Of a stretch of 10,403 bases of DNA, positions 1 to 5,887 are shown piece by piece. The translations under genes and the position numbers were made by a program. The notes under the pieces are model-generated. The model was not told where the DNA came from and ran no database searches. It saw nothing but the letters and a program-made list of their open reading frames with translations. Positions within the stretch are counted from its first letter, which is position 1; each line of letters opens with the position of its first letter. Origin of the DNA: Sulfurovum sp. bin170 (GTDB lineage Bacteria > Campylobacterota > Campylobacteria > Campylobacterales > Sulfurovaceae); NCBI RefSeq assembly GCF_010892395.1, contig NZ_JAACKB010000357.1, positions 1 through 10,403 on the forward strand, read 5' to 3'.

Positions 1-1070
1 ATAAGACTATTCAGTCCACTGATAAATTACCCCATTATCCTTTTAAGTTAAATAGTGAAACTGAAGATAGTTCAAGCAGTTTTGAAATTGTATTTTTTAT
101 TGATGAAATAAAATATAGATATGGCTTTGAAATTGATAATACAACAGTTTATTCTGAATGGCTATTTGCTGATGAAAAAGGTAAAGAAGCCAAATTATTT
201 TATAGGGATATAGATAAAGATCTTTATGTTAATGAAAAAAAATTTCAAGAAGGGTTACAATTAAAAAAATCAGGATTACAATTAAAAAAAATAAAGAATC
301 AACTCTTTATTTGGAAATGTGATTCTGCTGGTGGAGAAGTATCTCAAAGTATTTTGAAATGGTTTAAAAGATTAAACTTGATTGATGGAGTAGATCATGA
401 CCAATATATTGATTATGCTATGGAACAGATGGATAATCATGTATCAAAACAGAATCTTATAAATTTAGTGAAAACAGCGGATATAGGTATTGAAAACTTA
501 ACTGTAGTAAAAGAAGATGTTTCTAAAGATGCTATTGAAAAAATGCTTTTACCTGAAGAGTTAAAACAATGGATGCTTAAAGATGGAAATATTAAAGATA
601 TATCTTTGAAAACGCATCATAAGAAATATGATGAAAATAATAATGAAATTGGAATTACTACTTTTGAATTAAATAAAGAAGAGTCAAAAGGAACACAAAA
701 ATTCTTTAAAATCTCAGCTCCTATTTTAAATACATTAAAAGAAGGAAAGATATTAATTATTGATGAATTAGATGCTAGTCTACATCCAATGTTAACTAAA
801 CATCTTATCAAGCTGTTCCATAATAAAGAGGTTAATTCTAAAAATGCTCAGTTGATTTTTGCAACTCATGATACAAATTTATTGCATCACTCTATTTTTA
901 GACGAGATCAAATTTGGTTGACTGAAAAAGATTTATATGGAGCAACAAATTTATATTCATTAGCTGAATTTAAGAATGTAAGAAAAGAAGAAGATTTTGA
1001 AAAGTATTATATTCAAGGGAAATATGGAGCTGTTCCTTATCTTAATGATTTTAGGTTTGAAGATATTTAA
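1..1070 (+). CDS. rloA: RloA-like AAA/ABC-type ATPase, 5' end outside window
   Basis: The reading frame is open from base 3 (first full codon) to the TAA at 1068-1070, giving 355 residues of the C-terminal part of an ATPase; the start codon and Walker A motif lie left of the window. The ATG at 354 is internal, because the same frame continues upstream with protein-like sequence (for example IVFFIDEIKYRYGFEID). Visible motifs: an ABC-signature-like ESKGTQ (nt 681-698), Walker B ILIIDELD followed by ASLHP (nt 750-788), and an H-switch FATHD (nt 858-872). The C-terminal FEKYYIQGKYGAVPYL resembles the tail I know from RloA/AAA_15 proteins. RloA proteins are SMC/OLD-like cytosolic ATPases first noted beside restriction-modification genes in Campylobacter; related pairs (AbiL type) act in phage exclusion. 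Gene order with the RloB-like gene 2 nt downstream supports the assignment strongly. GAA and TTA codons dominate, unlike the era region. Confidence 0.85.
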   Translation, partial: KTIQSTDKLPHYPFKLNSETEDSSSSFEIVFFIDEIKYRYGFEIDNTTVYSEWLFADEKGKEAKLFYRDIDKDLYVNEKKFQEGLQLKKSGLQLKKIKNQLFIWKCDSAGGEVSQSILKWFKRLNLIDGVDHDQYIDYAMEQMDNHVSKQNLINLVKTADIGIENLTVVKEDVSKDAIEKMLLPEELKQWMLKDGNIKDISLKTHHKKYDENNNEIGITTFELNKEESKGTQKFFKISAPILNTLKEGKILIIDELDASLHPMLTKHLIKLFHNKEVNSKNAQLIFATHDTNLLHHSIFRRDQIWLTEKDLYGATNLYSLAEFKNVRKEEDFEKYYIQGKYGAVPYLNDFRFEDI

Positions 1071-1072
1071 AT

Positions 1073-2041
1073 ATGGGACGACGAAAAGCTAAAAATCGAA
1101 TAGATAATACTGAAACTGAACTTCGACCAATAGATTTTAAAAGAGATACGAATAATAGAAGAACTATTCCTGATATTATTATTTCATGTGAAGATGAAGC
1201 TTCTTCGCCCACCTATTTACGACAAATAGTTTCACTATTAATTAAAACTAAAATTATTACTCAAGATTCTTTTGTGATTGCTCAACATAAACATACAAAT
1301 CCTTTTGGTGTTTTAACTGATTTAAAAAAATATGAAGATGAGAATAAAAAGAAATATAGTAATTTTGAGCATAAATGGATAGTAATTGATAGAGATGTTG
1401 AAATTATCAAGAAAAAAGCAAAAACAGAAAAGAAACAGGGTTATAAGAAAAATGGACATACAAAAGAGGACTTTGAAAAAGCATTCAATAATGCAAAGAG
1501 TAAAATAAAAAAATATCATATAGAAGTCGCATATATAAATGATTCATTTGAATTATGGTATCTTCTTCATTTTAATTATAGAGACACAGCTATTATCAGA
1601 GATGAAATTCCTAAAGTAGTAATTGAAAATTTAAAAAAGCGTAATTTTAACAAGTTTAAAAACTTAACTGAAAAAACTATGAAGTCTGAAGAAAATACTA
1701 AAAAGATTTATAATGAATTAGAATCTCTACAAAAGAATGCTATTAGAAATGCAGAAACACTATTAGCTTCTTATGGAAATACACATAACCCTGAAAAAGA
1801 TAATCCATCAACTAACTTTCATGTTTTAGTAAAATTATTAAATAGCTTAGGTAAAGATGATGTACTTTTAGAAATAGTAAACAAACTAAGAGAAATTGAT
1901 ATGATGAAGTTCTCAGAGTTGACTATTAATAATATTATGGAATTTCATAATCAGCAGAAAATTAAAGATAAGTTTCGTCTAAAAGAAATTAATTTTGATA
2001 AAACAATTGATTTGATAAAAGTATTACATCTCTTAAAATAA
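1073..2041 (+). CDS. rloB: RloB-like protein (TOPRIM-like nuclease partner)
   Basis: A complete 322-residue protein, near the usual RloB length or somewhat longer. It starts with ATG only 2 nt after the upstream ATPase stop and has no strong Shine-Dalgarno, so it is probably translated by coupling. RloB-family hallmarks: a basic N-terminus (MGRRKAKNR), the strand-loop IIISCEDEASSPTYLRQIV at residues 35-53 (family form is close to CEG-x-T-E-x-Y), KWIVIDRDVE at 101-110 with the acidic D106/D108 pair, and DSFELWYLLHF at 157-167, which matches the family motif around FELWLLLHF. E40, D106 and D108 would be the TOPRIM-like metal-binding set. The C-terminal half is Lys/Glu-rich and helical and I recognise nothing in it. 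Together with the ATPase it probably forms a two-gene defence module; this role is inferred from family and context. Codon use is strongly AT-biased like the upstream gene. Confidence 0.87.
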   Translation: MGRRKAKNRIDNTETELRPIDFKRDTNNRRTIPDIIISCEDEASSPTYLRQIVSLLIKTKIITQDSFVIAQHKHTNPFGVLTDLKKYEDENKKKYSNFEHKWIVIDRDVEIIKKKAKTEKKQGYKKNGHTKEDFEKAFNNAKSKIKKYHIEVAYINDSFELWYLLHFNYRDTAIIRDEIPKVVIENLKKRNFNKFKNLTEKTMKSEENTKKIYNELESLQKNAIRNAETLLASYGNTHNPEKDNPSTNFHVLVKLLNSLGKDDVLLEIVNKLREIDMMKFSELTINNIMEFHNQQKIKDKFRLKEINFDKTIDLIKVLHLLK

Positions 2042-2121: not shown

Positions 2122-3267
2122 TTAAAAACTCTTAATTGGGTTCCCAAGCCTCAAAACCTCTGGAAATAGTCTCTTATAAACCTCACAATATGGAGACTTT
2201 CCACTACAAAAGCTATTAACAACCGCACACCCCCCACCACACCAATATCTCCACTGACACTCTTTGCACTCATCTATCTCATCCACACTAGGATTTTTTA
2301 GACTATTAGAGCTATTTTGTATATCTGCTAAAATAGAGTCTGAATTAACATCAGATACAGGTTGGTTCATGGTCATTGGACATTGAGAAATGTTTCCATC
2401 GGTATCAAATATTATATAGTTCTGCCCGACGCTACAGCTTCGCAGATGAGGTTCGGCTAGATTTGTCATATCTAGTAGAGAGTTTAGTAGTGACTGTTTT
2501 GGGGGATTTTTCTCTATGATTTTAAAAGCTTTTAGCATACCATCTATGATTTTTTGCGTATCTATTGGCTCTTTTCCCTTATAGAAGTTGATAGAGAACT
2601 GTAGCTCTTTTTCTAAAATCCACTCTAAAAGTTCAGGAAGTCCATCTACAGTTTCACTCTGTATAGTTATGGTGATAGATGGTTTGACTCCATTAGCAAT
2701 AGCTGACTCAATATTTTTCATGACCAGAGTTGAGGACTCTTCTCCATTCTTATATACTCTTTGTGACCCACTGATACTATCCAAGGAGATTACCAATTGT
2801 ACTCCACTATTTTTTATCCACTCTAACACCTCTTGATTGAGCATAGTACCATTTGTTAAAAGTGAAGCTATTATCTCTATATCTGAATCTATTGCATATT
2901 GATGTAGAGCTTTTAGTGTGTTGAAGTTTTGCAGGGGTTCTCCACCTGCGTATTTGAGTTTTAGTTTTTTTATCCCATTATCTTTGGCTGTTCTAACCAA
3001 TGAATCTATAATCTTTTTCCCCATACCGATAGATAGTGATTTAGGCTCATGAGGCAAAAAGCAGTAGCTACATCGTAGATTACAGCTATCTGTTAGGTGA
3101 ATCCATGCTGTTAATCTGTCAATTTTTCCAAAGACATTGTCCATACAAGCATCACACTGTCTTACAATATCATCTACACTCTCTATCTTGGAATCGGAGA
3201 CTTTAGTCACGAACAGTGCGAGGCTAAAGCCATCGGTTCCTAGTTCATCCAAAAGTGGAGTTTTCAT
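2122..3267 (-). CDS. Radical SAM/SPASM domain protein (peptide maturase-like)
   Basis: Starting at the ATG at 3267 the protein has 381 residues. An in-frame GTG at 3276 is possible, but the AGAGGG Shine-Dalgarno at 3277-3282 abuts it, while it sits 9 nt before the ATG. The ATG follows the TAA of the upstream STAND gene by 1 nt, so the pair is translationally coupled. The radical SAM cluster motif is CNLRCSYC (C62, C66, C69), with GGEP at 108-111 for SAM binding and SLDS at 161-164. The C-terminal SPASM domain is complete: C278-x12-G-x4-C296, then C334-x2-C337-x5-C343-x3-C347 (CQWRYWCGGGC) and C361, with an extra C354, enough for two auxiliary [4Fe-4S] clusters. Such enzymes use SAM to make 5'-deoxyadenosyl radicals and modify peptides (thioether, C-C or formylglycine formation). 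The substrate is unknown: no precursor peptide gene is visible. An N-terminal pair C38/C41 lies before the SAM barrel. Cytosolic, no signal peptide or membrane helix. Confidence 0.9.
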   Translation of the reverse strand: MKTPLLDELGTDGFSLALFVTKVSDSKIESVDDIVRQCDACMDNVFGKIDRLTAWIHLTDSCNLRCSYCFLPHEPKSLSIGMGKKIIDSLVRTAKDNGIKKLKLKYAGGEPLQNFNTLKALHQYAIDSDIEIIASLLTNGTMLNQEVLEWIKNSGVQLVISLDSISGSQRVYKNGEESSTLVMKNIESAIANGVKPSITITIQSETVDGLPELLEWILEKELQFSINFYKGKEPIDTQKIIDGMLKAFKIIEKNPPKQSLLNSLLDMTNLAEPHLRSCSVGQNYIIFDTDGNISQCPMTMNQPVSDVNSDSILADIQNSSNSLKNPSVDEIDECKECQWRYWCGGGCAVVNSFCSGKSPYCEVYKRLFPEVLRLGNPIKSF

Positions 3268-3268
3268 T

Positions 3269-5887
3269 TTAGTCACCCTCTACCTTTCCATCTCTCCAAA
3301 ATGATAATATATGCAGAGTCTCTGGATACATTTCACCTATCCTATTCTCTTCCCAATATCTACAAAGCCCACTGCCTATATCTCTAATTCTATCCGATGA
3401 GATACTATTTTGTTGAAATATTCTATCCAAATCTACCAATTGACTATAGATGCTATAGGGTTCACTCTCTCCATGTTTTTTGAAGTTCAAAAATGACTCC
3501 ATATAGTACTCCAACAGAGTCTCTACTACAGCCCCTTTGAGTAGTAGTATATCACCCAATTTTTTGGAGATAATCGCTTCAATAAGATAGTAGTTTGAGT
3601 CAGGATACTCTCTTTTAAACTTCTCATACTCCTCTTTTATCTTATCTTCATTATCAAACGATTTAGTTTCTATCAAAATAAGAAGTTGTAGATAGATTGA
3701 AAAGAGCATATATTCAGGATTTGGATGGAACTCATGAATCTTTATCGCCTTGGCTATATGCTCTTTTGCATCCTCAAATCTATCTTCAATAGTAGCGATA
3801 TAACCCTTCTCAAACTCCAAACGGACATCAAGTGAACTAACATCTATATATATATCAACAGCATACTCCAAATCCTCTTTTGCATCATCTAGCCTATTTG
3901 CGTGGATATTTGCTGTAGCCCTCTCAACAAATGCTCTTTTTGAGAAATCTTTATCACCTTTTTGGATAAAAATATCTATCGCCTTATTATAATATGTGAT
4001 AGCCTCTTGGTAGTATCCATATTTGAGATGTATCTCCCCATAGACCTCATACAACGCACCCAAACCTATCTTGAACTCCAACTTCTCCCATATCTTTTGA
4101 GCCACTTTGGCTAGTTTGGTGGCTGATTTGATAATCCCTTTTTGAGCATAAGCAAATGCCAAGTTGTTGTGTATCCACCCTTTTAATATCTGAGACTCTC
4201 TATCCTCATGATACCCCTCAACCAACTGATTTGCCTGTAGATAGTGGGTAATAGCTCTTGATAATTTTCCATTACATCTATATGCCCAACCTAACATATT
4301 GAGTGATTTTGCCTCCAAATGAGTGTTTTTCTCCTCTTTGCTAATGGCGATTGCCCTTTTGGATGCCTCTATCGCCTCCTCAAACTTACCAATTCTAATC
4401 TTGGCATTTACCAAAGAGATAATCAGATTGACTCTGCTCTCAGCACTCAAATCGGTACTATACTCTCTGCTCATTAACTGATAGGTCTTATCATATTTAC
4501 CATCTTTGATATGGTAGTGTGCAATATGTATAATAACACTACTCTTTAGCTCTCTGGAGTTAATTTGGTCGATATAGCTCTCTATAATACCGATTAGAGG
4601 TTTAATATATTTAAACAGCAGACCAATATTAAACTCCTCTTCAAATATCTCTATAAAATACTCTGTCCCCATCTCAACATCTCGATGAAGCTTCAATCTC
4701 AACAATCGCTGTTTAATAAAGGCTTTTTGGCTCAAACTATAAGAGTCCTCTTCAAGTTCCCTCTCCAAAACATATATACTTCTGTCTATGAATCGCTCTC
4801 TCTTTGGAAAAGTTCCCTCTCTTTGTATATGGAGTTCTAAGAGTCTTGAAATCTCATCATGTAGCCCCACTTCACTGTTGTCTATATTTTTAAATAGTAC
4901 AGAGTTTTTGGAGTACTCAAAGAGACTATCCCTCTCATCTCTCTCCAAATCCAATATCTTCTCTATCTCCAATCTACTAGCCTGTTTAACAAGCGATAGG
5001 AGCAAAATATACTCATCTATCCTATTTTCAGCCCTAATAATATCAGAGATTAATCCATCTTCAAACCTCTTCTCTAGGCTCTCTTTTTCGTGTCTATTGG
5101 CAAACAGAATATCATCCACACTATAGCTATCTAGCCACTCTATAGACTCTTCGATACCTATTCTATCAATCGCCAAATCTATCAAAATAGGTTTTCCACG
5201 ACTCAATATCGCGATTTTCTCCTCTGTTTGAGGTTTAACACAGATGCTACTATTGATTCTCTTTTTTTTGATATAAGATTTTATCTCATACTCATTGAAT
5301 TTTTTTAGTTTCAGTTGAGAGATAGACTCTTTTGGCAATATATTAATTAATCTGTCAAGATTCTCACTCCTCCCAGCTATCAAAAACAGTATGTTCTCAA
5401 ACTGCTCAAAAAGATTTTTGAGATATGGGATAGCCTTTAGGTCTAGCTTATCTAGCGTATCAAAAACGATAGTTACCCGCTGATTTTTCGTAAACCGATT
5501 AAACTCCTCCACAAAGACTCTATTTAGCGTCTTGTTATGCTCTTTTAGAGTCAAATCACTAATATCCAACTCTTTTTGGAACTTCTCATAATCCTTTTTG
5601 AGTCTAAAAAAGTTAATAAAATTCTCACCATCCATAAGCTCTTTTGCAATATGAGTAATGATGCTCCCTTGAATCTGAAAATAGTTATTGTCAAAATCTA
5701 TAATCTTACAAATCTTATAGAGAATTCCAAATTTGCTATAGACCTCCTCTAGTAGTCTGGTCTTACCAATCCCACCAATACCTCTTACTGCTATTAACTT
5801 CTTCTCTTCACTACCCTGAAGATAGCGTTCAATAGTCTCTAGCTCTTTAACTCTACCTATAAACTCTACTCTGTTAAATGGATTCAT
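3269..5887 (-). CDS. STAND NTPase (NB-ARC-like) with C-terminal TPR repeats
   Basis: An 872-residue cytosolic protein. The ATG at 5887 has a good AGAGGG ribosome site 7 nt upstream. Domains: an N-terminal GR-x-KEL entry at 11-16 typical of AAA_16/STAND proteins; P-loop GIGGIGKT at 36-43; Walker B VTIVFDTLD at 138-146; a sensor-like LFLIAGR at 167-173; a GxP motif GKPILIDLA at 231-239 (the GLPLAL motif of NB-ARC proteins); a winged-helix region near 285-350 with the MHD-like GLHDEISRLL at 341-350; then helical repeats. About seven TPR-like units lie at roughly 449-477, 484-518, 523-557, 568-603, 608-645, 650-685 and 689-719, the clearest being NMLGWAYRCNGKLSRAITHY. Such proteins are signal-triggered oligomeric switches in which the TPRs sense ligand or partner. 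No N-terminal effector domain (TIR, nuclease, protease) is present, so output may go through the coupled radical SAM enzyme downstream; that is inference. It uses GAG codons freely, as era does. Confidence 0.9.
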   Translation of the reverse strand: MNPFNRVEFIGRVKELETIERYLQGSEEKKLIAVRGIGGIGKTRLLEEVYSKFGILYKICKIIDFDNNYFQIQGSIITHIAKELMDGENFINFFRLKKDYEKFQKELDISDLTLKEHNKTLNRVFVEEFNRFTKNQRVTIVFDTLDKLDLKAIPYLKNLFEQFENILFLIAGRSENLDRLINILPKESISQLKLKKFNEYEIKSYIKKKRINSSICVKPQTEEKIAILSRGKPILIDLAIDRIGIEESIEWLDSYSVDDILFANRHEKESLEKRFEDGLISDIIRAENRIDEYILLLSLVKQASRLEIEKILDLERDERDSLFEYSKNSVLFKNIDNSEVGLHDEISRLLELHIQREGTFPKRERFIDRSIYVLERELEEDSYSLSQKAFIKQRLLRLKLHRDVEMGTEYFIEIFEEEFNIGLLFKYIKPLIGIIESYIDQINSRELKSSVIIHIAHYHIKDGKYDKTYQLMSREYSTDLSAESRVNLIISLVNAKIRIGKFEEAIEASKRAIAISKEEKNTHLEAKSLNMLGWAYRCNGKLSRAITHYLQANQLVEGYHEDRESQILKGWIHNNLAFAYAQKGIIKSATKLAKVAQKIWEKLEFKIGLGALYEVYGEIHLKYGYYQEAITYYNKAIDIFIQKGDKDFSKRAFVERATANIHANRLDDAKEDLEYAVDIYIDVSSLDVRLEFEKGYIATIEDRFEDAKEHIAKAIKIHEFHPNPEYMLFSIYLQLLILIETKSFDNEDKIKEEYEKFKREYPDSNYYLIEAIISKKLGDILLLKGAVVETLLEYYMESFLNFKKHGESEPYSIYSQLVDLDRIFQQNSISSDRIRDIGSGLCRYWEENRIGEMYPETLHILSFWRDGKVEGD

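Follow-up and report, generated by a model that had tools for sequence, protein, structure and literature searches.

A STAND-TPR NTPase and a radical SAM/SPASM enzyme with a leader cysteine motif look like a reduced copy of an undescribed modular defence-type system in Sulfurovum sp. bin170

What does a radical SAM (S-adenosylmethionine) enzyme of the peptide-maturase type do beside a STAND switch protein that has no effector domain, and what does it modify when no precursor gene is visible next to it? The question is raised by two adjacent genes on a contig of Sulfurovum sp. bin170 (NZ_JAACKB010000357.1, assembly GCF_010892395.1), whose 10,403 nucleotides are here called the window: one encodes a STAND-type NTPase with TPR repeats, the other a radical SAM/SPASM enzyme. 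A preliminary description had seen in them a possible two-gene system. We found that the pair is real and widely shared, that it mostly belongs to a larger cassette, with immune-type modules in some of its copies, and that the enzymes bear a short cysteine motif in their own leaders. Pair and cassette look like an undescribed modular defence-type system; a full-text literature search, with most subscription papers beyond its reach, found no published description of this cassette.

The STAND-TPR protein (P0001, 872 residues; window 3269-5887, minus strand, as for every feature of the pair) was defined by its open reading frame (ORF), Pfam matches and alignment with relatives, and eight full-length relatives, 64-78% identical, align with it over its whole length. 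A P-loop (GIGGIGKT, residues 36-43; 5759-5782), a GxP motif (GKP, residues 231-233; 5189-5197) and an MHD-type motif (LHD, residues 342-344; 4856-4864) are all present in this single protein, at exactly the residues given in the preliminary description. The three are conserved columns in an alignment of 15 sequences, in which G38, G39, G41, K42 and T43 of the P-loop are invariant. AAA_16 (31.8 bits, cut-off 32.6) and NB-ARC (19 bits, cut-off 23.5) fell just under their Pfam cut-offs, and TPR_12 was well over its own (1.4e-16), pointing to a C-terminal repeat sensor; the top-scoring TPR region by Pfam and NCBIfam matches spans residues of about 492-676 (3860-4414). As had been suggested, no effector domain was matched in this protein in Pfam or PADLOC.

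The enzyme (P0002, 381 residues; 2122-3267) starts at an ATG at 3267, 1 nt past the TAA of the STAND gene, the gap first reported for the pair; an alternative GTG at 3276 would overlap that TAA. Radical_SAM is over its Pfam cut-off and the cluster motif reads CNLRCSYC (residues 62-69; 3061-3084). The Pfam SPASM match is below threshold (16.4 against 21.5), and the full set of SPASM cysteines claimed earlier is present at residues 278, 296, 334, 337, 343, 347 and 361 (2185-2436). Cluster and SPASM cysteines are invariant in alignments of 16 and of 66 sequences, both including the window enzyme. Ahead of the core lies the leader motif QCDAC (residues 37-41; 3145-3159), located by alignment, motif tally and structure model; it falls in a low-confidence tail of the model, which is probably flexible. 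At the in-frame junction F46/G47 (3127-3132) a stretch of about 80 residues, by eye count against P0023, is missing from the window enzyme; in the six relatives nearest to it (P0023-P0028) this stretch holds an RRE-like domain, whose fold was seen in one of them, P0027. RRE leader-binding domains are common in radical SAM/SPASM peptide maturases, and not universal.

Is the pair more than a local accident? When 84,980 species genomes were scanned with the enzyme alignment, 203 loci were confirmed; the best 80 were kept, so that the shares given here may be lower in the remaining loci. The kept loci belong mostly to Chloroflexota and Nostocales, with single records from Thioploca, Atribacteria, Cloacimonetes and others. 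In 65/80 a STAND-TPR gene lies no more than 600 bp upstream of the enzyme on the same strand, and in 54 of these 65 the two genes overlap or are within 30 bp, overlaps being computed from the longest ORF start and hence upper bounds. The STAND gene is convergent with the enzyme in four loci and separated from it by one gene in two. No full STAND gene was found nearby in nine, five of them at contig edges (L022, with a STAND fragment, L046, L047, L072 and L093); the other four are L037 (Cloacimonetes), L089, L091 and L073, the last with a STAND fragment. Protein distances of STAND and enzyme correlate over 54 pairs. The adjacent pair thus recurs in other neighbourhoods and in several phyla, which rules out a curiosity of one strain, and its enzymes are not always found with a known precursor and without the STAND gene.

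A small gene of one cluster stands between STAND and enzyme at L070:9364-9819, L077:3934-4416 and L087:9225-9770, and directly before the enzyme, at the contig end, at L089:288-800; of these copies only that of L077 was scanned, and it proved to be a GNAT acetyltransferase; L064 has a member of the cluster elsewhere. Five STAND proteins (L019:6124-9840, L036:6223-9876, L065:6052-9918, L066:675-4415 and L081:6325-9945) carry a Peripla_BP_4-type ligand domain (about 1e-30) inserted just after the P-loop region. Four of the five are partnered with short-leader enzymes; by enzyme type the insert occurs with 4/5 compact against 1/59 full enzymes, a comparison uncorrected for relatedness.

Clustering of neighbours revealed a third gene, gene 1, a member of which lies ahead of the STAND gene in 55/80 loci; membership was by single linkage, and the cluster is accordingly loose. 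The cassette of most kept loci therefore comprises three genes or more, and the part of effector, one of the two roles first considered for the enzyme, need not fall to it. We scanned 45 gene-1 proteins (39 of the 42 cluster loci outside Nostocales, 1 of the 13 in Nostocales and 5 non-cluster genes in the same position) and found AAA_16 in 26, AAA_22 in 18, TIR_2 in seven, EAD7 in three, trypsin in two, and CHAT, EAD8, EAD9 and bDLD1 in one each. The scanned Nostoc locus has a Trypco1 gene, a separate trypsin-EAD9 gene and then an NTPase-like protein that also carries EAD9. Exchangeable modules such as TIR, trypsin, CHAT and EAD are a typical feature of conflict systems. That some gene-1 copies carry such modules favours a conflict or defence role, more than do the window's neighbours, on which the earlier proposal of defence had been based. 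In this some of the cassettes resemble the conflict systems in which EAD, Trypco1, bDLD, TIR or CHAT modules are joined to NTPases; they differ in having a radical SAM/SPASM enzyme as constant partner.

Further genes precede gene 1 in some loci. At L023:4283-5519 (Nostoc) these are the Trypco1 and EAD9-trypsin genes, whose clusters also appear in further cyanobacterial loci. In many Chloroflexota loci one or two extra genes of a second cluster precede gene 1, often along with a long unannotated gene; this cluster occupies the 5' part of 17 loci (for example L024, L043, L044, L050, L055-L058, L060, L070, L084, L087 and L094), and the three of its proteins that were scanned matched NTPase models in Pfam weakly or not at all.

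The leader motif bears on the substrate question. Among 200 distinct enzymes, the window enzyme included, 187 were counted after leaving out six with leaders under 25 residues and seven without a recognisable core. C[AD]C or CDAC occurs ahead of the core in 156 of the 187, against 3.6 expected by shuffling each leader; its general form is [D/Q]C[A/D]C. In distant radical SAM proteins from viral contigs, 62 in number and 30 of them with a leader of at least 25 residues, neither C[AD]C nor CDAC occurs. The cysteine blocks number one to four per enzyme, are mostly 19-25 residues apart and stand before or after the RRE-like domain, in six proteins directly before the core; the L073 enzyme has the motif twice at its C-terminus and none in its leader. 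RQCDAC is identical in all seven members of the window enzyme's clade. Leaders are too short for an RRE-like domain in 13/187 enzymes, a count that may include misread starts and that corresponds to at least 10 changes on the tree; in a tally of compact enzymes, from which leaders under 15 residues were dropped, 10/13 retain the motif. A divergent subgroup (P0093, P0094, P0105, P0106, P0113, P0128 and similar) starts with MKIW, MKIY or MKVW and has other D/C/G-rich leader sequence without the CAC/CDC motif. With a stricter pattern, all other ORFs of the 80 loci gave two isolated matches, and the motif was not found in their STAND proteins, in which no search for other target types was made. 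Because its number and place vary within one enzyme, the motif looks more like a substrate or tag than a fixed ligand, and the enzyme probably acts on its own tail; this displaces the remote peptide and the STAND protein, named earlier as possible substrates, from the likeliest place.

Could a separate precursor nevertheless exist? The preliminary description had seen none in the window, where a 52-residue ORF (1989-2147), on the enzyme's strand in another frame and overlapping its end, contains no cysteine. We compared 958 ORFs of 30-140 residues that did not lie within large genes and that stood up to 6 kb before or 3 kb after the enzyme in the 80 loci. Recurrent among these were Trypco1 (14 loci), an antisense artefact of Trypco1 (10) and a response regulator (3), the remaining groups being shared by two or three loci each; no widely recurring precursor-like gene was found among ORFs of this size, which makes a neighbouring precursor less likely. 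A Cys-poor ORF just downstream of the enzyme is shared by L072:1498-1755 and L074:5665-5886, and a hydrophobic one by L087:11474-11605 and L094:13431-13625; three of these four lie 126-209 bp downstream of the enzyme, and by eye none has a Cys-rich core. For remote precursors, a DNA pattern covering DCAC plus two bases only gave 43 matches in 12 host genomes against 11 for the reversed-pattern control. Out of the 42 matches read (all except G526:C21), 6 were in the enzyme and 36 in unrelated frames, none of them a convincing precursor.

The reading we lean towards, with slightly less than even confidence, is that the two genes are the remnant, or the minimal form, of an unnamed conflict system, modular, patchy in distribution and probably directed against invaders, whose maturase modifies its own tail. 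Its architecture would be an NTPase-type protein bearing an effector or adaptor module that can be exchanged, a STAND-TPR switch and a radical SAM/SPASM maturase with a substrate motif in a flexible leader. What the sequences themselves show is the order of the genes, intact NTPase and catalytic motifs, and a leader motif that differs in copy number and position and, in a pattern scan, is almost missing from the remaining ORFs of the loci; for the four steps that follow, as for the chemistry and the defence role, we infer a model. The maturase, by means of SAM and its clusters, would modify the C[AD]C or CDAC cysteines of its own leader, acting in cis or between protomers; a thioether-type modification of the kind made by CteB and PapB would be the likeliest. 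The co-translated STAND-TPR protein would then read the modified tail, or the loss of the modification when an invader disturbs the supply of SAM, iron-sulphur clusters or redox equivalents. It would change its nucleotide state and oligomerise, and in fuller loci the oligomer would recruit the gene-1 module, such as TIR, trypsin or CHAT.

Four other explanations compete with this one. The leader cysteines could instead form a metal, iron-sulphur or redox site, such as an extra cluster ligand or an electron inlet, in an enzyme that acts on another protein. We think this unlikely, and still the strongest of the four: cysteine with aspartate can bind metal, SPASM enzymes hold extra clusters and the motif is constant in the window's clade; blocks in one to four copies, on either side of the RRE-like domain or C-terminal in L073, and their position in a low-confidence part of the model argue against a fixed site. 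Somewhat less probable is that the motif serves as a docking tag while the enzyme modifies the STAND protein, a partner NTPase, or an invader or host protein. The tight coupling of the two genes agrees with this, and an RRE-like domain implies a bound peptide, yet the 13 short leaders have no room for one, and the lack of the stricter pattern in the STAND proteins weakly disfavours it.

An ordinary maturase of RiPPs (ribosomally synthesised and post-translationally modified peptides) with its precursor encoded elsewhere, as for FxsB, would account for the enzyme's fold and best family matches, which are mostly peptide maturases, and for the small downstream ORFs common to L072 and L074. According to Kaur et al. 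(2020; PMC7159879), FxSxx systems likewise pair a TPR-bearing AP-ATPase with a radical SAM/SPASM enzyme, and FxSxx-COOH/AP-ATPase peptide processing (FxsA, FxsB, FxsT) forms multi-gene conflict systems with TIR modules. FxsT/FxsB, the precedent first proposed, remains the nearest found, but the window pair is far under both cut-offs (FxsB, TIGR04269, 34.1 bits against 370; FxsT, NF040586, 46.3 against 300) and carries a substrate-like motif on the enzyme itself. The FxSxx peptide, zincin peptidase, vWA, MoxR and FtsH were not among the recurrent neighbours or scanned proteins, although no model search was aimed at these five. With no small ORF except Trypco1 widespread near the 80 loci and no motif in other plausible genes of the 12 genomes, we consider such a maturase improbable. 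Nor did NCBIfam place the proteins: no cut-off was reached among the best 25 of 82 matches of the window enzyme, among all eight of the window STAND protein, or among matches of 1e-15 or better for five other enzymes and three STAND proteins. The PapB model (NF047865, cut-off 340) gave 120.1 bits for the window enzyme and 134.3-149.5 for five relatives; the present family differs from CteB (SCIFF maturase) and PapB (ranthipeptide maturase) in its coupling to STAND, its leader motif and the absence of a recurrent precursor gene. Least credible, and very improbable in our view, is an effector of the viperin kind, switched by the STAND protein and producing a small antiviral molecule. PADLOC pVip models do match the radical SAM core (1.4e-18), but the NCBIfam viperin model (NF038283) gave 62.7 bits against a cut-off of 180, peptide maturases are better structural matches, and the window enzyme has the SPASM cysteine set, which to our knowledge viperins lack.

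How does the window copy fit a self-modifying maturase in a conflict cassette? Its gene-1 position is taken by a toxin-antitoxin pair and gene 1 is absent there; elsewhere in the genome, the best of six matches is a 530-residue NTPase-like protein with no gene-1 module by eye. The copy is a reduced one, perhaps not fully active: its effector may act in trans, the enzyme itself may fill that part, or the system may be a decayed one. The RloAB, Rpn and toxin-antitoxin neighbours reported earlier are present by model matches, as RloA/RloB, an Rpn-type gene and a ParE/Phd-like pair, together with era. RloA/RloB (3-2041, plus strand), matched by PADLOC AbiL models and with an RloA frame running in from the contig end, adjoins the 3' end of the enzyme gene. 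Its G+C of 0.25-0.26 is lower than the 0.34-0.37 of the genes from the enzyme through era, and it is therefore probably a separately acquired block.

The pair is rare in the window's own taxonomic group: of the genomes searched (34 of the genus, 150 of the family and 397 of the phylum), only its own gave a full-length STAND match, and eight more of the family gave weaker, partial ones of no more than about 31 bits. Metagenomes yielded eleven relatives of the STAND protein (64-85% identity, fragments included) and, for the enzyme, six at 60-69% plus one fragment; P0008/P0026, P0009/P0027, P0010/P0028 and P0013/P0024 each appear to be a STAND/enzyme pair on one contig, as the longest contigs of the two partners agree in length. 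The window STAND protein had no match on viral contigs, where the enzyme alignment found distant kin only (20-37% identical), and the enzyme relative P0049 had none among phage and plasmid records at 1e-20 or 1e-40.

More broadly, it is possible, if on balance doubtful, that a self-modifying radical SAM/SPASM enzyme with its core motif in the same chain is the sensor input or tag of a STAND-based, effector-exchanging immunity, the chemistry of its tail reporting the SAM, iron-sulphur or redox state to an NLR-like switch. If so, bacterial NLR-like systems would gain a constant radical SAM component, above all in Chloroflexota and Nostocales, and the family would provide an example of a core motif fused to the very radical SAM maturase that acts on it. 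The substrate question for radical SAM enzymes beside STAND/AP-ATPase conflict genes would also become testable, the leader motif being short, conserved and readily assayed by mass spectrometry.

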